Part shown: piece by piece, positions 24,692-37,155 of the stretch | Position numbering within the stretch: the stretch's first letter is position 1 | Layout of the letters: each line of letters starts with the position of its first letter | Assembly (NCBI RefSeq): GCF_900114035.1 | Contig: NZ_FORP01000020.1 | Span: 62,001 to 126,000 of the forward strand | DNA from: Amycolatopsis sacchari | GTDB taxonomy: Bacteria; Actinomycetota; Actinomycetes; Mycobacteriales; Pseudonocardiaceae | Direction: 5' to 3' | Length of the DNA: 64,000 nt | Program-made: the position numbers and the translations under genes | Notes under the pieces: model-generated | Seen by the model: the letters and a program-made list of their open reading frames with translations, nothing else | Told to the model about the DNA's origin: nothing | The model's database searches: none

Positions 24692-27204
<2,513 letters not shown>

Positions 27205-28757
27205 TGCAGCAGTACTCGCAGGGCACCAGCTCGCCGGGACTGACCTCCGCCCACGCGATCGGCACCGGCTCGTGGATGTTCATGCCCTGGCGGGCGGCGC
27301 GGCGCTGTCCTTTGTGGAGCCAGAGGCAGTGCGGATCGTTGTGGTACGCGTACCCCTCGACGCGGTACCCGCGCGGTAACACCCCCGGCGGCAGGGGTTT
27401 GCAGAGCGCGCACCAGGACACGGGCATCTGGTGGACGCACTCGTCCTCGTCGGGGGGTGGCTTGGTGGGGGCTGGGGGTGTGGGGGAGGGGTCGGTGGGC
27501 GCTGCGCTCTGCTGCCGCTCGCTGGCGGTGGGCGCTCCGAAGGCGAGGCGCGGTCTGGTGGCTGCCGGGGCCGCAGGGGAGGGGGCGGTCGCGGGCAGCT
27601 GCTGGGCAGCGGCGAGCGGGCCGGTGGCGGGTGCCGGGGGCGGCTTGGTGGCTGATGCTGGGGCCGTGGCGGAGCGGCTCGTGGCGGGTACCGGGGCGGC
27701 GTGCGACTGCGTGGCGGGCGCCGGGGGCCTGCCCTGCTGTCGCCTGCCGTCGGCGGGCGCTGCGGAAGCGGGGCGCGGTCTGGTGGCTGCCGGGGCAGCG
27801 GCGCCTGGCTGCGTGGCGGGCGCCGGGGGCCTGCCCTGCTGTCGCCTGCCGTCGGCGGGCGCTGCGGAACCGGGGCGCGGTCTGGTGGCTGCCGGGGCAG
27901 CGGCGCCCGGCTGCGTGGCGGGCGCCGTGGGGCCGCTCTGCTGTCGCGCGCCGGTGGCGGCCGCCGAGGGAGCGCGGTCCGGTTGGCTGGCGGCGCCCGC
28001 GGTAGCCGGGCGCGGCCGCCCGCCCGCGGCTGCCGCCGCCGAAGCCGGGCGTGCCTGGCCGGTGGTCGCCGGAGCCCCCGCAGCGGGAGCAGGCCCGCCC
28101 TGCCGCCGCTCACCGCCGCCGGGAGCCCCGCCCTGCCGCCGCTCGCCGCCGCCGGGAGCCCCGCCCTGCCGCCGCTCGCCGCCGGAGGCCTGCGTCGCGG
28201 ACGCCCGCGACCCGGACGCCTGCGGCCCGGGGACCTGCCGCCGAACGGCGAGCGGCAGCACCCCCTCCTCCTCGACGGGCTCCGGCTCCGGAGCCACCGG
28301 CGCCGGCGGCAGCTTCGCCGCCTCCTTCGCGCCCCGCACGGCCAGCCGGTCGGCGCGCTCGTTGTCCGGGTGCCCCGCGTGGCCCTTGACCCAGTGCCAC
28401 TCGACCTCGTGCCGGTGCAGCGCCGCGTCCAGGCGCCGCCACAGGTCGGCGTTCTTCACGGGCTGCTTCGCCGACGTCAGCCAGCCGTTGCCCTTCCAGC
28501 GCGGCATCCACGACAGCACACCGCTGCGCACGTACGTGCTGTCCGTGTAGAGCCGCACCGCCGACGGCCGCTTCAGGGTCTCCAGCGCCTGGATGGCCGC
28601 CATCAGCTCCATCCGGTTGTTGGTCGTCGGCCCCGGATCCGGGCCGTACAGCTCCCGCTCGTGACCGCCGTAGCGCAGCACCACACCCCAGCCGCCCGGC
28701 CCGGGGTTCGGGCTGCAGGCGCCGTCGGTGTAGATCTCGACGAAGGCTTCCCCCACG

Positions 28758-31700
28758 TCAGGAATCTAGCAACGGCGCCGTGACGCAGGCCCGCAGCACC
28801 GGGTCACCCCGCTCGCCGAGCAGGGCGGCCACCTCGTCCCGGTGCCCGCTCTCGACGAGGCAGCGGGCGGCGAGCACGGCCTGGTCGAGCGCTCTGCCGT
28901 GGTGGCGGACCACGTCCAGCCACAGCCGCGCGGCCGGCTCCAGCAGGCCGAGCTTGGCGAGCTTGTCCGCGGCCTCCATCCGCTTGTCGGCCGGGGTGTC
29001 CACGCTGACCAGCACCGCCACGATCTCCCGCCCGGCCTCGGCGCCGCCGGCGTCGATCCAGTTCTCGACGCAGTACGACACCCAGATCTCGTCGGTCGCG
29101 AGCGTCGCCAGGCGGGCCGCCGCGACCGCCTGCTCGCGCCGCCCGATCTTGGTGAGCGCACGCACGAGCTGGTGGCGCTGGTAACCGTCGCAGTCGAGCA
29201 GGCGGGGGTAGGCGGCGTCCAGCAGCTTCGCCGCGAGCGCGGGGCGGTGCTCGGCGGCGGCCAGCGCCACCTCGACCAGGAGGTCCGTCTGCGCCTGGGC
29301 GGCGAGCAGCTTGCCGGCGAGTTCGTCGGCGGCCTCGCCGTGCCCTTGCGCGCACAGCACCCCCGCCAGCCTCGCCCAGTACTCCGGGCCGCGAACGCTC
29401 GCCGCCCGCACCACGCGTTCCGCCGTGGCCGCGTCCCCGTCCTCGAGCAGGGCCTGCACGACGTTGGCGAGGTCCCACTTGTCCAGCCCCGGATGGTCCA
29501 AACTGGACAGTGCCTCTTCGCGAAGGGCGCCCTGGTCACCGAGGTCGGAACCCAGCGCCAGGAGCCGGAGCTTGTACTCGATCCCCAGGCCCGGCTTGTT
29601 CTCGACCAGTCGCAGGAGCTCACCGCTCTCGCCGCAGTTCGCGAGCACGCGGGCGGCCCGCACGAACTCGTACGGCCCCGCGTTGGGCCGCTCCAGCACG
29701 TTGCGCGCCAACGCGGCGGCCGCTCGCGGGTGCGACTCCTCCTGCAGGGTCACCGCCACGCCGAGCACGTGTTCGACGGGCCGCGTTTCGGTCGCCGCGA
29801 GGATTTCCGGTACGCCGTCGCCGCCCTTCGCCGCCAGTACGGCCAGCACCGCGTCGTTGAGCTCGTCCGCGGACGACGACTCCCGCGCGAAGACCTTCTC
29901 CGCGGCCCACAGCCCTTCCTCGGCGCAGTGCAGCCGGACCGCGAGATCGGCGAGGTTGCCCCAGCTCGCGGTGCCGTCCTCCCAGACGTCCACCAGCCGC
30001 GAGCCGAGCGGGAAGCCCGCGCCGTCGGTCACCGCGGGATCGGCCCGCAACCGCACCACCACCTCCCGCAGCAGTGGCGCCGCTGCCTCGCCGCGGCCGA
30101 GTTCGTCCAGCAGGTACAGCAGGGCGAGCTGCCTCGCGAAGTCCGCCGCCGCGCCGGCCACCAGGCGCACGAGCAGGCGTTCGCCGATCGTCGCCCCGTC
30201 GGGGACCAGCTCCTTGAGCACCAGCACACACCGGTGCAGCGCGGGCAGGCTCGCCCGCTCGGCGAAGGACTCCAGCCACCGGGCGGCTTCGGCGGTGTCG
30301 GCGACGCGGCCCAGCACCGCCGCGCACTCGAGCCTGGTGGCCTCCGACAGCTCCGGAGCGTCCCGCAGTTCCCGCAGCCGGGCGATCGCGGGCGCGCCGA
30401 GCGTCTCGGGCACGAACGAGACGAGCACCTGGCCGATCTCCTCCACGTCGGACCAGGGATGCCTGCGGGCGCCGTTCGCCAGCAACGCGTCGAGGATCCG
30501 GTCCACGACAGCGGCGGCGAGCCGGTCCCCGATCTCGATGCCCTCGGCGAGCAGCCGTCCCGCGAAGAGCACCTCGTCCTTCGCCCCGGCGAGCAGCACC
30601 TCGAACACGCGGCCCAGTTCGTTGCCCGCCCGGCCCCACAGCACGAACGTGAACAGGGCGAACGCCTGCGTCGCGAGGCCCATGCCGCGCTCGATCCACT
30701 CGTCGAGCCCGGGGAAGTCGGCGGAGATCTCGCGGGCGCGCCTGCGCGCGGCGAGGAACTCGGCGAACGAGTAGTGCCGGAAGTCGAGGACGTCGTCGGT
30801 CTGCTCGAACACGCCCGTGCTCGCGAGCAGCGCCCGCAGGTCCTCCTGCCAGCCCTCCGGCAGCTCCAGGCCCTGGCCGGCCACCCACTCGCACGCCGCT
30901 TCGAACAGCGGCGACTCGCTCTCCAGCCGGTGCGCGGCGAGCTGCTCGACGATGTCCGTGCGGTGCTTGCGCAGCCATTCGGCGAACGCGAGCCGTTCCG
31001 GTTGGTCCCGCAGGGAGCGGCGCAGCTCGGCCACGGTGTCGCGCCTGCTGGGCGTTTCGTCGAGCAGGTACGCCATGAACCGGTCGTAGAGGTCGACGCG
31101 GCTGTTGGGCAGCGGGCGCTGGGGTTCGAGCGTGTGCGCGATCGCCGCGATCGTGGCGAGCAGCGGGTTGCGGACCAGCTCCCGCAACCGGCCGTCGCCG
31201 ACCTGGCGGACGAACTCGGCGGCCCGGCCGGTCGCGGTGACCGGGTTCTGCGCGCGGAACCACGCGCCGGCGAACTCGGCCAGCTCGCCGGGACCGAACG
31301 GCTGGAGGTGGTAGGTGTCGAGCCCGGCCCGTTCGAACGGCGCCAGCTCGCGGCCCGGCAGCGGGCGGGTGGTGACGACCAGGCGGTGGTCGGCGCCGCG
31401 GCGCACCTGGTAGGCGATGGCGTCGATCACCTGCGCGCGGGTCTCCGGCTCGATGATCTCGTCCAGCCCGTCGACGAACACCAGCCAGCGGGCGCCGAGC
31501 GCGCGGCGCGCGAACACCTCGGGCCGCGGCCGTTCCGACAGCAGGCGGCCCAGCGCTTCCTCGGTGCCGGCGGCGAGCAGTTCCGCCCAGGCCCGGTTCG
31601 CCGCGAGCGCCCGCGCGGGCACGCGCAACGGCAGGAGGGGCTCGCTCAGCGGGGGCTGGCCGTCACCGTCGCCGAGCCAGTACGCGGAAAGCTGCTGCAC

Positions 31701-32144
31701 GTACAGGTAGCCGACGGTCGACTTGCCGCTGCCCGGTTCGCCGGTGAGCACGAGGTGCCCGCCGCGGTCGAGCGCTTCGGTGATGCTCAGCACGCGCTCG
31801 GCGGACTCCGGTGCCTGCTTGCGCTCCGGCTCCGGCTTGCGCCCGGGCTCGGGCGGCCGCTCGGCGAGCTGGGGGCGGATCGTCTGCTGCACGTACACCT
31901 GCGTCAGCTCGGGCTGACGCACGCCGAGCAGCTTGTACGGCAGCGCCTCCGTCGCGCGCTGCTGGGCCTCCAGCAGGTCACGCAGGGCCGGGGACAGCGG
32001 GGGCCGGTCCCGCCAGGACGTCAGCGGCCGGTCCGGCTCGACGGGCCCGCCGTGGAAGTGCAGCGTCAGCCGGTCGATGCTGCCCGCCTGCACGACGGGA
32101 CCGTCGAACCGGCCGCCGCTGATCTCGTTGTGCCGCTCGACCAT
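28758..32144 (-). CDS. NACHT-family NTPase with RHIM/BASS-like N-terminal motif and helical-repeat C terminus
   Basis: 1128 residues from ATG 32144. Residues 6-24 ([19 protein letters not shown]) resemble bacterial amyloid signalling motifs found at NLR-like N termini. Walker A GEPGSGKS at 135-142; Walker [12 protein letters not shown] at 220-230, with the extra acidic residue typical of NACHT; then [14 protein letters not shown] and winged-helix-like segments. From about residue 560 the protein is an alpha-solenoid of degenerate Ala/Leu-rich repeats, a likely ligand sensor. No signal peptide or membrane span. Divergent from a small unknown gene. It probably acts as a STAND switch in immunity or conflict; the effector is not obvious. 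Confidence 0.85.
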
Positions 32145-32228
32145 GGTCCAGTTGTACGGCACGGGGACGCCGTTCCGGGCGAAAAGCGGCCACTCGGTGC
32201 GGTCGGGTTTCAGGGTGTGGGGGTTCTC

Positions 32229-32261
32229 GGTGTAACGACACCACGGAGTATTCCGACTCCG
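32229..32261. promoter_or_regulatory. Two adjacent dyads in the NACHT divergent promoter region
   Basis: GGTGT-AACG-ACACC (32229-32242) is followed at once by CGGAGT-ATTCCG-ACTCCG (32244-32261). Both have perfect arms and lie 5-37 bases before the GTG at 32266 and 85 bases upstream of the NACHT start. They may be operators or the hairpin of an untranslated leader. Confidence 0.4.
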
Positions 32262-32265
32262 GGGC

Positions 32266-32688
32266 GTGTTCGAGCTCATTCTGGACCCGCGGGCGGTCGG
32301 CACCCCGGTGGAGACGCTGCACAAGCTGGTCGGTGCCGCCGGCTTCGTCGTCACCGTCTCTGGCACGGCGCCTGCGGGCACCACGGAGCGAGCGATCCTC
32401 ACCGCCGCCCCGAGGCTGGCAGAAGACCGGGACATCAGGACAGACGGGCTGAGCACCAGCCGGATCGGCATGTACCGCGTCTTCTGGGGAGTGGTTCCTC
32501 ACCCCAGCGGAAGCCTCGCGCTGCTCGTCCCGCTGGCGGGGGAAGACGGCTGGGTCCACCACTTTCGCGTCGAGGTCCTCGACCCGGTGCAGGCTCTGGC
32601 GCAGCAGGGTTATTCGACGGGCGGCGGAGGCAACGGCGCGGTCACGGACGCCGGGTTCGCCCAGGCCTTCCGGCAGGCCGGAATCTGA
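32266..32688 (+). CDS. Small uncharacterised protein linked to the NACHT/protease locus
   Basis: 140 residues from GTG 32266. I do not recognise a family. It begins FELILDPRAVGTPVETLHKLVGAAG, has alternating beta-like stretches (GFVVTVSG, GSLALLVPL, HHFRVEVLD) and a Gly-rich patch before a final helix, suggesting a small alpha/beta fold. No signal peptide or membrane span. It is 18 bases upstream of the membrane coiled-coil gene, so the two are probably co-transcribed, and divergent from the NACHT gene. Small constant partners are common in such conflict loci, which makes a regulatory or effector-associated role plausible. Confidence 0.65.
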   Translation: MFELILDPRAVGTPVETLHKLVGAAGFVVTVSGTAPAGTTERAILTAAPRLAEDRDIRTDGLSTSRIGMYRVFWGVVPHPSGSLALLVPLAGEDGWVHHFRVEVLDPVQALAQQGYSTGGGGNGAVTDAGFAQAFRQAGI

Positions 32689-32705
32689 TCGCGGAGGTGG
32701 TGCCC

Positions 32706-33188
32706 GTGGCTGAAGCGGATGATCAACGGCCACAGTGGACGTGGCGGTTCTGGACCGCCGTGGGCATCGTGCTCGCGTTCACGGTGCTCGTGGTGGTCAT
32801 GTTCCTGAACTCCGGCGGCGACGAGATCGTGTGGCAGCGGCGTGTGTACCTGTTCGGTGCCGTCGAAGCCCTCACGTTCACAGCGGTCGGCTGGATCTTC
32901 GGACGCGAGGTGGGCCGCGGTGCTGTCACGGCGGCCCGGCAGAACGCGGCCGCGGCGCAGGACGACGCCGACGCGGCACGATCCGAGGCGCGGGCGAAGA
33001 CCGAGGAGGCGGCCGCCGCCGACCGGCGCGCTGTCGAAGAGAGGATCAAGGGCGAAGCCGTCGTGGCCGCGGTGCGCAGCTTCACCGAACCGGTCGCACC
33101 GGACGGGCTCAGCGACGTGACCGTCCGCCCCGGCGGACCCGCCGCCCTGCGGGATCTGCGCGCGTTCGTGGACGACCTCTACGGCTGA
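32706..33188 (+). CDS. Two-span membrane protein with cytoplasmic coiled coil
   Basis: 160 residues from GTG 32706, with GGAGG 8 bases upstream. Two hydrophobic spans (about 12-33, FWTAVGIVLAFTVLVVVMFL, and 44-63, VYLFGAVEALTFTAVGWIFG) are joined by a short loop. They are followed by an Ala/Glu/Arg-rich helix of about 45 residues (TAARQNAAAAQDDADAARSE onward), likely a coiled coil, and a C-terminal DLRAFVDDLYG. No enzyme motif is seen. Probably a membrane anchor or pore-forming partner of the neighbouring NTPase proteins. Its 3' end overlaps the convergent protease-STAND gene by 10 bases. Confidence 0.75.
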   Translation: MAEADDQRPQWTWRFWTAVGIVLAFTVLVVVMFLNSGGDEIVWQRRVYLFGAVEALTFTAVGWIFGREVGRGAVTAARQNAAAAQDDADAARSEARAKTEEAAAADRRAVEERIKGEAVVAAVRSFTEPVAPDGLSDVTVRPGGPAALRDLRAFVDDLYG

Positions 33189-36100
33189 CCCCCGTTCAAC
33201 GCGTTCACGAGGAACGCACAGCGTTCTTCGGCCCGGGCGAGTGCCTTCCGGTACCGCGGCGTGTCCGGCAACTCCCGCCGGATCGCGACCGCCTCGCGCG
33301 CGGAGTCCAGTGCCTCGGCCAGCCGCCCGAGATCCTGCAGGCGGCTGGCTCGCTGGAGCAGCGACGTCGCCAGGCTCTCCCGGTTCGCGGGCACTGTGGG
33401 CGGAAGTTCTCGCTTGAGCGCGATCGCCCGGTCGACGTGGGGGAGCGCTTCCTCGTGATAACCGAGTGCACCCAGGCGGGCCGCCAGTGAGTTCAGCGAA
33501 ACCGCGAGCGACGATCGGTAGCGGTCCGGCATCAGGTACGCCAGCCGTTCCCGGATGTGTACGGCCTCTTGGATCGTCTTCCACGCCGCCTCCGGGTCGG
33601 AGTTCGCGAGCCGGGCGGCGAGGTTGTTCAACGACAGCGCGAGAGCGGGCAGGTACGAGTCCGGAGACCTCTCCGCGAGGAGCCTGCGCAACTCCACCGC
33701 CTCGCCGACGACGTCTCGGGCCTCGGACTCGCGTCCCAGCCTGGACAGCCGTACCGCGAGGTTGTTCAGCGACACGGCGAGCGAGGCCTGCGAGGTGTCC
33801 GAGTCTTCCCGGTACAGTCCGCGTTTGAGGGCAACGGCTTCCTCGATCGCGGCGAGCGCTTCTTCGTCCTCCCCGAGCTCCGCGAGCCGCACGCTCAGAT
33901 TGTTGAGCGACGCGGCCAGCTCCCGGCGCGAGTCCTCCGTCCCGGCCTCGGCGAGCCGTCGGCGGATCTCGACCGCTTCGCGTGCGTACGCGCCGGCGTC
34001 CTCGTGTTCTCCCGCACGGGCCAGCCGGATCGCCATCTGGTGCACCGACTGGGCCAGCAGCGGTTCCGCGGCCGGGTCCGCCGCCGCGAGCTCCCGGCGG
34101 ATCGCCAGCGCCTGCTCGGTGTGGCGGCGCGCTTCGGGATAACGCCGCGCGTCGCTCAGGCGTGTCGCACACCTGCTCAACAGCAGTGCCCTGTCCGTCG
34201 GGGGTAGTTCAGCCGACAGCACGACCGCGGTCTCCGCGAGCGTCAGCGCGGCACCGGCCAGAGCCAACGAGGTAGCCGGAATCCGCTGCTCCACCTCGGT
34301 CAGCACGAGGGGATCGGGGATCAGCGGCGTTCCGGCCTCGATGAGGGGGGCCGCGACGGCCGGTTCGCCGGCGGAGATCGCGCCGGACACAGCGGGCCCG
34401 AGCCACCGGCGTGCATCCGCCCGCACAGCGGCCGACAGCGCCTCCGCCACCGCGGGGTGCCGGGCGGCCGCGCGAGCCGCGACCGTCCACGCTCGATCGC
34501 TCTGCGCCTCGGTGGCTCCGGTCAGCAGGATCTGCAGCAGGTCTGGCCGACGTCGTAGGCAGCGGGCCAGGAGGTCCTCACCGAGCCGGTCGGGTTCCAG
34601 CGGTGCGACACCGGCTTCGGCGGGGTACAACCCGCGCAACCACTGCAGGTACCGCCATTCGTATCCTGCGGGGGACTCCGGCACGGCGGCGACGACGTGT
34701 TCGGCCTCGGCGGGATCGTCCGCCCCCAGCAGCGTTGCCGCGCACACGAGGGTGCGGAGCAGCTCCGGATGGGTGTCCGGCAGCTGTTCGGCGTGGGCGG
34801 CATCGAGCCAATAGCGGGCCTCGTGGTGCAGCAGGCGGGCACTCGGCCCGGAGTCTTCCGTGGCGGCTGTGGGTACTGCCTCGTCGAGGACCTGGGTGAG
34901 CGCGGTCAGGCAGACCGTGAGTGCGTGTCCGTCCGCCGGCGGAGCGAACTCCTCGCGGACAGCCGTGCCGAACCGCTCCGCGAACCGGCGCAGGGCTTCC
35001 GCGTGCAGCGGTGCTGCCTCCGCGAGTGGGGGCAGTGCCCAGACCGGCGCCGACTCCAGCATCAGGGCCACGCGATCCGGACTTCGGGCTTGCAGGCGCT
35101 CCAGCCAGTCCCCGGTCGACCTGGCCAGCAGCAGTACCCGGACGACGTTCGTCCGCTCCCCGTTCCGCGCGAGCGTGTCCAGCAACCGCACCAGTTCGTC
35201 CTCACGCGTGTCGGCGTAGTCGACGACGAGCAGTACGGTTCCGCTCAGTGCCGCGAGCCGGTCCACGACCTCCGCGGGCACGTCCTTGTGCAGCAGGCCC
35301 GCGATCGTTCCCGGCCGCGTGGCCGCCCGCGCGCAGAGCTGCCTCGCGAGACGGGTCTTGCCCTCCCCGCCCCGCCCGGTCAGCAGCGCCACCCCCAGGT
35401 GGCCGCGTTGCCGCTGCCACGTCTCGATCCGTTCGATCAGGTCGTTGCGGCCCAGGAAGGGCACGAATTCGTATTCGCTCTTGAGGAGCAGGCTCGGCGG
35501 GGCGTCTTCCGGCAGGACGGGCCGGGGGACGAACGCGTCACGGACCACCTCGTCCCAGCCTTCGGCGACCCGCGTCCAATCCATCCGCTCGACGGTTTCG
35601 AGCGCGAGTTCCGCGAGCGTCTGCCGGAGCCGCGCCGCGGGCACCACCCAGGCACCGAGTGCGCTGGTCGCGTCGCGGGTGGTGCGCAACATCCCGCCGA
35701 CGCGACCGGTACGCAGGCTCAGTACCGGGCTGCCGCTCATCCCCGGCACGGCCTGACCCCGTCCGAGCTTGACGATGTCCCCACCGCTGAACCACTTCTG
35801 CCCGGTCACGTCGAACGTCTCCGATTCGAGGGCGTGGCCGAACGCCGGAGCCACCCCGCAGGCCAGCACCCGGTCCGTGGTCCGCAGCGGCTCATCGTCG
35901 AGAACCACGCACGGGTGGTCCACCGCCTCCGCATCGGACAGGCGCAGTACGGCCAGGTCCGGCGGTGGGCAGGGGTTGGCGTTGACCACAGCGGGCTCTG
36001 CGTGCACGACGTCGGCGGCGAACCGCCGTCCACCCCATTCGACCTCGACAGCGCCGGAAACTCCGTCCGTCACGTGCGCGCAGGTCAGCACGGTGCCCGG

Positions 36101-36211
36101 GGCGACGAAGAACCCGGAACCCCGCAACGACCCTTCGCGGTGGACACGGACGGATGCCTGGGTGAGCAGCTCGACGAGTTGCGCCAGCCGGCCTGACTCG
36201 ATCTCGCTCAC
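33179..36211 (-). CDS. Trypsin-like protease - STAND NTPase - TPR protein
   Basis: 1010 residues, cytoplasmic (no signal peptide). Residues 15-200: chymotrypsin-fold protease with His46 (TCAHV), Asp85 (PPDLAVLRL) and Ser159 (PGMSGSP). Residues 250-~480: P-loop NTPase preceded by FLGRNDLIERIETW, Walker A GRGGEGKT at 279-286, Walker B VLLVVDYAD ending near 334. Residues ~700-990: at least six 42-45-residue TPR units (SLNNLSVRLAELGEDEEALAAIEEAV, SLNNLAVRLSRLGRESEARDVVGEAV and so on). Such protease-NTPase-TPR proteins occur in actinobacterial conflict systems. The protease may be unleashed when the NTPase/TPR senses a trigger. Confidence 0.9.
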   Translation of the reverse strand: MSEIESGRLAQLVELLTQASVRVHREGSLRGSGFFVAPGTVLTCAHVTDGVSGAVEVEWGGRRFAADVVHAEPAVVNANPCPPPDLAVLRLSDAEAVDHPCVVLDDEPLRTTDRVLACGVAPAFGHALESETFDVTGQKWFSGGDIVKLGRGQAVPGMSGSPVLSLRTGRVGGMLRTTRDATSALGAWVVPAARLRQTLAELALETVERMDWTRVAEGWDEVVRDAFVPRPVLPEDAPPSLLLKSEYEFVPFLGRNDLIERIETWQRQRGHLGVALLTGRGGEGKTRLARQLCARAATRPGTIAGLLHKDVPAEVVDRLAALSGTVLLVVDYADTREDELVRLLDTLARNGERTNVVRVLLLARSTGDWLERLQARSPDRVALMLESAPVWALPPLAEAAPLHAEALRRFAERFGTAVREEFAPPADGHALTVCLTALTQVLDEAVPTAATEDSGPSARLLHHEARYWLDAAHAEQLPDTHPELLRTLVCAATLLGADDPAEAEHVVAAVPESPAGYEWRYLQWLRGLYPAEAGVAPLEPDRLGEDLLARCLRRRPDLLQILLTGATEAQSDRAWTVAARAAARHPAVAEALSAAVRADARRWLGPAVSGAISAGEPAVAAPLIEAGTPLIPDPLVLTEVEQRIPATSLALAGAALTLAETAVVLSAELPPTDRALLLSRCATRLSDARRYPEARRHTEQALAIRRELAAADPAAEPLLAQSVHQMAIRLARAGEHEDAGAYAREAVEIRRRLAEAGTEDSRRELAASLNNLSVRLAELGEDEEALAAIEEAVALKRGLYREDSDTSQASLAVSLNNLAVRLSRLGRESEARDVVGEAVELRRLLAERSPDSYLPALALSLNNLAARLANSDPEAAWKTIQEAVHIRERLAYLMPDRYRSSLAVSLNSLAARLGALGYHEEALPHVDRAIALKRELPPTVPANRESLATSLLQRASRLQDLGRLAEALDSAREAVAIRRELPDTPRYRKALARAEERCAFLVNALNGGQP

Positions 36212-36315
36212 GCGCGTTGAGTCGCGCCGCCCGTCGCTGGCATTACACGCGCTCAGGTCGTCACCGGCGTCAGCGCCGCGGGTGCTGCCACCGGGCTACC
36301 GGCCCCACAACAAAA

Positions 36316-36361: not shown

Positions 36362-37039
36362 TCACCAGCCCCGTTCGCGCCATTCGGCGAGCTTCGGGCG
36401 CTCCGCGCCCAGCGTGGAGTCGTCCCCGTGGCCGGGGTAGAACCACGTCTCGTCGGGCAGCACGTCGAAGATCCGTGACTCCACGTCGTCGATCAGTGAG
36501 CGGAAATCCTCCGGAGAGGTGGTGCGGCCGACGCCGCCCGGGAACAGGGAGTCACCGGTGAACAGGTGCGGCGGGCCGTCCGGGTCGCGGTACAGCAGGG
36601 CGATCGACCCCGGCGTGTGCCCGCGCAGGTGGATCACCTCGAGCGTGCAGTCGCCGACGGTGAGGGTGTCGCCGTGCTCCACCAGGAAGTCCGGCGGCAC
36701 CGGCAGCGGACCGGCGTCGAGCGGGTGCGCGGCCGTGTTCGCGCCGTTCGCGCCCGCCACCGCGCCCAGCGCCTGCCAGTGGTCGCCGTGCTGGTGCGTC
36801 GTCACGACGGTGCGCAGCGCCGGCCGGTCGGGGCCGTGCCCGATGAGGTCCGAGATGCGCTCGGGGTCGGCGGCCGCGTCGATGAGCAGCGCCTCGTTCT
36901 GCGCCCGGCACACCAGCAGGTACGCGTTGTTGTCCATCGGCCCGACGGACAGTTTGGTGATGGTCAGCGCCCCGAGCGTGCGCCGTGCGGCGTCCCCGCC
37001 CGGCTCGACGTGCCCGGTGTAGTCCTCCACGACGTTCAC
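36362..37039 (-). CDS. Metallo-beta-lactamase-fold hydrolase (glyoxalase II-like)
   Basis: 225 residues. Metal-binding motif THQHGDHW, further ligands in LRGHTPGSIALLY, FTGDSLFPGGVGRT and a final YPGHGDDST: the full MBL metal-site set. The opening VEDYTGHVEPG and KLSVGPMDNNAYLLVC are typical of the actinobacterial homologue usually found before uvrA. GTG 37039 is chosen over GTG 37048 because TACCGT ends 7 bases upstream (leaderless pattern). Natural substrate unknown, perhaps a thioester. Confidence 0.9.
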   Translation of the reverse strand: MNVVEDYTGHVEPGGDAARRTLGALTITKLSVGPMDNNAYLLVCRAQNEALLIDAAADPERISDLIGHGPDRPALRTVVTTHQHGDHWQALGAVAGANGANTAAHPLDAGPLPVPPDFLVEHGDTLTVGDCTLEVIHLRGHTPGSIALLYRDPDGPPHLFTGDSLFPGGVGRTTSPEDFRSLIDDVESRIFDVLPDETWFYPGHGDDSTLGAERPKLAEWRERGW

Positions 37040-37155
37040 CTGGCACACGGTAGCCGTCGCGCTGCGGCGAGTTCCACCCGTTCAGCCCGGTCTCAGATTC
37101 GTAACGTAACCTCGCTTCCCGTTGCCAGACCCCGCTCGAACTCCCCAGGAAGCCC

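Follow-up and report, generated by a model that had tools for sequence, protein, structure and literature searches.

The current study concerns a 64,000-nucleotide stretch of the Amycolatopsis sacchari genome (contig NZ_FORP01000020.1, positions 62,001 to 126,000; hereafter the window), in which four linked genes encode a NACHT NTPase, a 140-residue protein (p140), a small two-transmembrane (two-TM) coiled-coil protein (TMcc) and a protein combining a trypsin-like protease, a STAND NTPase and TPRs. An initial annotation had regarded these genes as a single candidate conflict system. The interpretation we favor, with a probability of about 0.52, is that a variable site carries two separate conflict modules, in one of which TMcc serves as the membrane-bound target or co-effector of the protease. 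Composition and homologues divide the block into what are probably separate modules, module A containing NACHT and module B containing p140, TMcc and the trypsin-STAND-TPR gene, both of which are probably conflict systems of an anti-phage, cell-suicide type. The sequences support the conflict role that had been proposed from the parts, but they do not support a four-gene system. The argument draws upon directly observed features, namely the gene content, the insertion, a composition split, a motif likeness, a repeated linkage of TMcc to protease genes and the build of TMcc itself, and its new part is the TMcc family together with these proteases.

TMcc (32706..33188, + strand) belongs to an unnamed two-TM coiled-coil family with 21 distinct loci, of which 19 were recovered by scanning the genome contigs of 84,980 species, the others being the window and genome G042. 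One locus encountered twice (L148, from genome G423, and L198) was counted once, whereas two that were left out of the 19-row alignment A2 (L186, whose frame runs into other sequence, and the fragment L193) are nonetheless included in the 21. A protease gene, encoding a trypsin, CHAT or caspase, is found in the cluster at 15 of the 21 loci, and at 10 of these 15 it lies directly downstream of TMcc. Trypsin genes occupy this position at L071 and L192, while L183 and L184 present TMcc followed by a trypsin-VMAP-C gene and then an AAA gene. CHAT genes are directly downstream at L190, L195, L196, L198, L191 and L194, with that of L190 assigned from its position and its likeness to L195 and L148 rather than from a domain scan of its own. 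Among the Terrabacter loci, L182 and L186 hold an EAD1-trypsin gene and a STAND gene in the TMcc cluster and L185 a partial homologue of that trypsin, and at L197 a C14 caspase gene is located shortly upstream of TMcc. The TMcc and protease genes overlap by 4 bases at L183, L184, L190 and L195. Because the scan employed the TMcc sequence only, protease neighbors were not favored by the search. The A. sacchari genome itself has 14 Trypsin_2 and 2 CHAT matches in 7.59 Mb, or approximately 1 per 470 kb, such that a random 14-kb stretch would hold a protease gene of this kind about 3% of the time. In a tree of the 19 aligned rows, all six CHAT-linked rows cluster together (93/91), the window TMcc groups with L181, L183 and L184 (100/99), and the protease labels taken together require 5 changes vs. 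a shuffled mean of 9.8, with 0 of 200 shuffles as low. Among trypsin relatives, the companion gene is Trypco2 at L072 (Pfam), L075 and L149 (alignment), or Trypco1 at L078, L079, L150 (Pfam), L151 and L152 (alignment). The two are reported as mutually exclusive trypsin neighbors (Kaur 2020, PMC7159879). A BLAST search whose leave-one-out control picked up 8 of 8 known Trypco genes detected no Trypco relative at any of the 21 TMcc loci retrieved or within the block of the window, and neither p140 nor TMcc has a Pfam match to PF19493 or PF19631 (Trypco1/Trypco2). From these comparisons, TMcc looks like a third, membrane-bound alternative to Trypco1/2 that would also serve CHAT proteases, and it is likely a dedicated membrane partner of the protease.

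Several observations weigh against this interpretation. No protease was recognized at 6 of the 21 loci (L181, L187, L188, L189, L193 and L199), where neighbors were judged mostly by eye and few genes were Pfam-scanned; of these, L187, L188 and L199 are located close to the end of a contig, and L193 is fragmentary. However, no protease was seen at L181, which is 49% identical to the window TMcc and is flanked by 7 kb of sequence on both sides. The loci are also not independent, as they include 4 from Herbidospora, 3 from Terrabacter and 4 from Actinoplanes/Paractinoplanes, and they represent about eight genus-and-architecture contexts. Furthermore, the seven trypsin-linked rows do not form one group, but require 3 changes on the tree, and the window has TMcc and the trypsin-STAND-TPR gene in convergent orientation, not TMcc upstream in one operon.

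A TMcc relative in Bradyrhizobium (L199, 194-640) falls outside Actinomycetota, at a contig end; Terrabacter sp. Root181 has two TMcc-like genes (L185, 5085-5702 and 6863-7489) close to genes for a STAND protein and a partial trypsin; and in Streptomyces chryseus (L197, 5708-7417) TMcc shares one open frame with an upstream protein of ~400 aa, right after the caspase gene, which makes it a possible natural fusion. Matches in G037, G068, G071, G297, G321, G403, G524, G536, G255 and G336 (E 1e-6 to 1e-3) were dropped before counting; none fits the pattern W.R...EA..F...G..FG in a scan of the fetched loci.

The initial description of TMcc as a two-span coiled-coil membrane protein agrees with its build, which comprises a two-TM hairpin, a long helix, a Gly/Pro-rich linker and a short conserved tail. 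Two hydrophobic spans are detectable, the second weak, and the AlphaFold model (mean pLDDT 82, pTM 0.39) places helices at residues 5-34, 40-127 and 146-159, residues 134-143 being of low confidence. Across the 19 rows, 11 positions are invariant (W43, R45, E54, A55, F58, A60, G62, F65, G66, V69 and A88), conservation being strongest around the second TM and not in the linker, and the invariant Glu falls within the second TM segment. All 19 rows have a linker of 8-34 residues, mostly Gly/Pro/polar-rich, followed by the conserved tail, which is a helix in the model of the window member. Such a build suits a membrane partner or substrate of a protease. TMcc has no meaningful match in Pfam or among solved structures: the window member has three Pfam matches (best E 0.022), no family matches more than 5 of the 19 members among the families listed (25 of 44), and a Foldseek search with the model retrieved no solved structure at E<=0.001 (best E 2.5). 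TMcc was not found in viral contigs, nor in plasmids using two relatives as query, and no description of it was seen in the passages of the literature that were consulted.

The protease of module B (33179..36211, - strand) has the trypsin triad, the STAND NTPase and the TPRs in one chain. Its translation bears out the triad reported in the initial annotation, with His46 in TCAHV, Asp85 in PDLAV and Ser159 as the GxSG serine (GMSGSP from 157), and the two proposed P-loops of the block are likewise present, here as Walker A GRGGEGKT at 279 with LLVVDYAD at 327. Pfam assigns Trypsin_2 (61 bits), nSTAND_NTPase5 (43.8 bits, cut-off 34) and TPR_10. PDB matches are confined to kinesin light chain TPRs, and PADLOC gives weak partial matches, the best being RT-Protease_XI over the trypsin domain (E 1e-6). 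STAND-TPR relatives open not with trypsin, but with a TIR-like stretch (L073 and L076, by eye) or a VQAG/VQTG motif (L074 and L077), as expected of an interchangeable effector position. The remaining member, p140 (32266..32688, + strand), precedes TMcc in a closely spaced pair of genes. It has a coding-type codon-position GC of 0.73/0.53/0.86, but no homologue, and we thus consider it a probable, unproven gene. Among 394 class genomes, 98 others match it at E<=0.1 (best 4e-4), all partially or with low scores and judged to be by chance. There was no convincing homologue in 150 family genomes, genome contigs, viral contigs, plasmids or PDB sequences and nothing convincing in Pfam, PADLOC or NCBIfam; hhalign against the Trypco1/Trypco2 profiles gave a probability of about 0.1%. 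Its single-sequence model (mean pLDDT 40) is uninformative.

The division into modules is first apparent in the GC content at third codon positions (GC3), which is 0.947 in NACHT, within the host value of 0.943 +/- 0.028 (47 window genes of at least 120 aa), whereas it is 0.858 in p140, 0.857 in TMcc and 0.851 in the trypsin-STAND gene. Against this, the lowest host-gene GC3 (0.862) is near the values of module B. Codon-position GC is coding-like for all four genes. When each gene was searched in one set of 150 family genomes, NACHT relatives occurred in 42 (E<=1e-10) and trypsin-STAND relatives in 30 (E<=1e-20), while TMcc matched in 5, convincingly only in its own genome and G042, and p140 in 1, its own. 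Near-full-length NACHT homologues were identified by blastp in G088 (57%), G115 (50%) and G119 (43%), and p140, TMcc and trypsin-STAND are not among their neighbors at any of the 3 loci. The initial annotation had held that finding the homologues of the four genes separately in most genomes would refute a unit. Separate occurrence is indeed seen for NACHT, whose near-full-length homologues do not have the other three genes as neighbors, but not for TMcc, which is repeatedly encountered, in several genera, with a trypsin, CHAT or caspase gene as neighbor.

All four genes are nevertheless contained within an insertion of ~7.5 kb (approximately 28777..36310), delimited by the conserved RNase H (27173-28756) and MBL (36362-37048) genes on either side. 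RNase H leader homology ends at ~28776 and MBL-side homology starts at ~36358 (36314 in another genus), the left edge being surer than the right. For comparison, the surroundings of the MBL gene were searched in 19 further pieces of DNA from relatives by blastp (1e-5) on called genes, and the 14 with both RNase H and MBL present were taken as comparable sites; on the others (L165, L168, L170, L175 and L176) the piece ended early or no RNase H was seen. Not one of the four genes (NACHT, p140, TMcc and trypsin-STAND) lies between RNase H and MBL in any of these 14. The spacing is 15 bases at L163 and ~0.2 kb at L162, one small gene is present at L158, and unrelated cargo at L161, L164, L169 and L171-L173. 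Together, the site comparison and the homology limits indicate that the four genes make up a single insertion in a variable site, which demonstrates their co-location, but not a joint function. Within the genus, the RNase H-MBL interval (28777-36310 in the window; L158-L176) is near-empty or filled by unrelated clusters. The flanking RNase H gene encodes an RNase H domain, to which a long linker of Pro/Ala-rich repeats connects a small C-terminal region containing His and Cys residues. On the other side, the MBL gene was present in 41 of 41 genomes searched and stays beside an acyltransferase gene and uvrA across the genus with no trypsin-STAND gene there; a terminator-like inverted repeat, read by eye, separates it from the trypsin gene of the window.

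The four open reading frames were confirmed where initially placed, except that the NACHT start was moved. NACHT (28758..32144, - strand) has an open frame of 28758-32471 (-), whose likely start is the ATG at 32144, yielding a product of 1128 aa, because the upstream portion lacks a coding-type codon-position GC (0.55/0.65/0.86 vs. 0.80/0.48/0.95) and homologues open with the same motif. The first 37 residues (32034..32144, - strand) contain the N-terminal signaling-type motif, followed by the NTPase and a long C-terminal region, likely of helical repeats. The Walker motifs of a NACHT core are present (GEPGSGKS at 135 and VFVDGLDE at 222), as in amyloid NLRs of the Bell/BASS type, with a sub-threshold Pfam NACHT score (19.6 bits, cut-off 26.7). 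A PDB sequence search gave no match, and NCBIfam only EruA at 28.6 bits vs. a cut-off of 1000. Based upon its motif, NACHT is apparently a sensor of amyloid-type NLR signaling of a known kind. As a caution to this view, similarity to its homologues stops at residue 1109-1111 of 1128 and the final codons fall inside the old RNase H leader, for which reasons NACHT may be slightly damaged.

A profile of this motif (A3) was assembled from 11 rows, the first being NACHT itself, with 10 motifs located N-terminally, or nearly so, in large proteins (NACHT relatives, STAND/TPR proteins and one of unscanned domain content) and 1 at a small-protein C-terminus. Applied to 61 genomes, A3 gave matches in 45 at E<=1, many of them weak and probably due to chance, and it also matched the C-termini of small proteins that we term Bell-like, a name that follows the description in PMC7889193. 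The second-best match in the A. sacchari genome falls on the last residues of a 107-aa Bell-like protein of contig C32 (G000:C32:302804-303127; L233, 5805-6128; E 6.6e-8), which ends in NNQITGTVHGKVVQAGDIHGNISF. It aligns end to end (alignment A6) with motif-ended proteins of G107, G009, G014, G244 and G008 at 35-54% identity, and in all five cases a larger protein with the motif is encoded within the stretch retrieved, as an overlapping gene in G244, nearby in G107 and G014, and at ~2 kb in G008 and ~5 kb in G009; that of G107, the one compared, matched NACHT. Thus, through A3, the motif is shared between the N-terminus of an NTPase and the C-terminus of a small protein, and the 107-aa protein is a candidate partner of NACHT that would act in trans. 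There are, however, several points against such a pairing. Within the window, a pattern scan detects the motif in NACHT only, and the candidate lies on another contig. Searched alone against its own genome, the NACHT motif retrieved itself and two chance matches (E ~1) and missed the 107-aa protein, so that the link leans upon A3, a partly circular search given that A3 includes a Bell-like row. A second motif protein of the same genome (G000:C58, 675 aa, E 6.3e-4) could be the real mate of the 107-aa protein, around whose gene no further motif match was found on the 12 kb fetched. Two related observations concern other loci. At L237 (3941-6043), the third protein of the locus also opens with a VIQARDI-type motif (by eye), so that two receptors for a single Bell-like protein may be encoded there. 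At L067 (14236-14622), a 128-aa protein starting MSDNRFRVHVGGDLSGNVVVGANNTV adjoins a 539-aa NTPase-like gene (by eye), perhaps a different amyloid-type motif pair.

Based upon these features, a scheme can be proposed for both modules, of which we infer every activation step as well as the orientation of TMcc. In module A, NACHT would be an amyloid-type receptor with its candidate partner encoded elsewhere in the same genome. In module B, by analogy with other STAND proteins, the TPRs of the trypsin-STAND protein would sense a trigger, whereupon the STAND domain would cluster and switch on the N-terminal trypsin domain, which would then act with its dedicated membrane partner. TMcc would present its two-TM hairpin and long, probably cytoplasmic helix, with the tail held on a flexible, perhaps cleavable linker. 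It is conceivable, though rather doubtful, that TMcc is a killer resembling gasdermins in logic rather than in fold, in which case the trypsin, CHAT or caspase, switched on by its own NTPase, would cut the linker and release the tail, thereby allowing the two-TM hairpins to form a lesion. Protease-activated pro-effectors are known in several anti-phage systems (PMC12799240) and protease-released gasdermins are known in bacteria (PMC9079055). The linker contains an Arg in all 14 rows with a linked protease and in 2 of the 5 rows without one, a post hoc count confounded by linker length and relatedness; it is a weak hint for cleavage, and these proteases need not cut at Arg. A less elaborate function, which we regard as a possibility to be taken seriously, is that TMcc is only an anchor or assembly platform, a membrane version of Trypco or EACC1 that is never cut. 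In favor of this, TMcc takes the place that Trypco1 has in related trypsin-VMAP systems, its strong conservation lies around the second TM instead of the linker, and EACC1, a single-TM protein before caspase-like effectors, has been proposed as a membrane sensor (PMC7159879). Yet the variable Gly/Pro-rich linker and conserved tail of all 19 rows exceed the needs of an anchor, and the invariant Glu inside the second TM segment also speaks against it.

Other explanations concern the block as a whole. A single conflict system with NACHT as sensor, p140 as adaptor, TMcc as pore and trypsin-STAND as effector would fit the shared insertion and the arrangement of the genes, as the initially reported divergent NACHT/p140 starts (a gap of 121 bases) and 10-base overlap of the convergent trypsin and TMcc ends (33179-33188) are both correct, and at L182 and L186 of Terrabacter a single cluster does bring TMcc together with a STAND NTPase and an EAD1-trypsin. 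The proposal of one unit nonetheless appears improbable, since NACHT differs from the other three genes in GC3, has three near-full-length homologues without them nearby and has its own kind of candidate motif partner. In addition, of the four other family genomes with any TMcc match, the convincing one, G042, lacks a NACHT relative, and in G068, which has one, the TMcc match (E 9.8e-4) was rejected. We likewise hold little expectation that the block is a passive mosaic of decaying genes at an insertion hot spot with no present function. The variability of the site in the genus, the host leader sequence in the NACHT 3' end and the orphan status of p140 would all be compatible with decay, but the long open frames, intact catalytic residues and Walker motifs, and coding-type codon-position GC in all four genes are not what it would predict. 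It is scarcely credible that the neighboring MBL protein is a pro-nuclease cut by the trypsin in the manner of AVAST type 1. Its gene is directly upstream on the same strand, in the layout of Avs1/Hachiman nuclease-protease pairs (PMC12799240), but it keeps its place in genomes without the trypsin-STAND gene and is set apart by the terminator-like repeat. As a conserved host gene independent of trypsin-STAND, it was rejected as an Avs1 nuclease.

Trypsin and CHAT proteases form the effector end of many predicted bacterial suicide systems, many of which are without a known target. TMcc, which travels with trypsin, CHAT and caspase alike, offers a concrete candidate for their shared target or docking site that can be tested. 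In module A, an amyloid-type receptor and its killer protein may be encoded apart, and adjacency-based searches would consequently miss such pairs.

When compared to known systems, each module has recognizable parallels. Bell/BASS amyloid NLR pairs are known from filamentous bacteria (PMC7889193, PMC8086366, PMC9815663), where the NLR carries the motif N-terminally and a small helical protein, Bell, carries it C-terminally (PMC7889193). Similarly, the ~25-residue N-terminal motif of NACHT recurs at a small-protein C-terminus, but its candidate partner is elsewhere in the genome rather than adjacent, and the motif is not close to the BASS3 peptide in Table 2 of PMC8086366. With AVAST type 1 (PMC12799240), module B has in common a trypsin and a STAND NTPase, although in the window the trypsin, STAND and TPR parts are in one protein and the MBL gene is a conserved host gene. 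Bacterial gasdermins (PMC9079055) offer a parallel in logic only, a protease encoded next to a protein that acts on membranes and has a C-terminal part inhibiting it, whereas TMcc is all-helical, has two TM spans and has no sequence or fold match to solved structures. The EACC1 two-gene system (PMC7159879, section 33) likewise has a gene for a small membrane protein on the 5' side of one encoding an effector, caspase-like or otherwise, but EACC1 has one TM, while TMcc has two TM helices in the model plus a long helix; by sequence, neither EACC1 nor SLATT appears in the Pfam list of the window TMcc (E<=1) or, for all 19 members, among the families listed (25 of 44). The trypsin/Trypco modules (Kaur 2020, PMC7159879) differ from module B in their neighbor gene, which in the window is TMcc (together with p140) and not Trypco1/2, but they share with it both the placement of trypsin N-terminal to a regulatory NTPase or VMAP and the presence of a small, dedicated neighbor gene.

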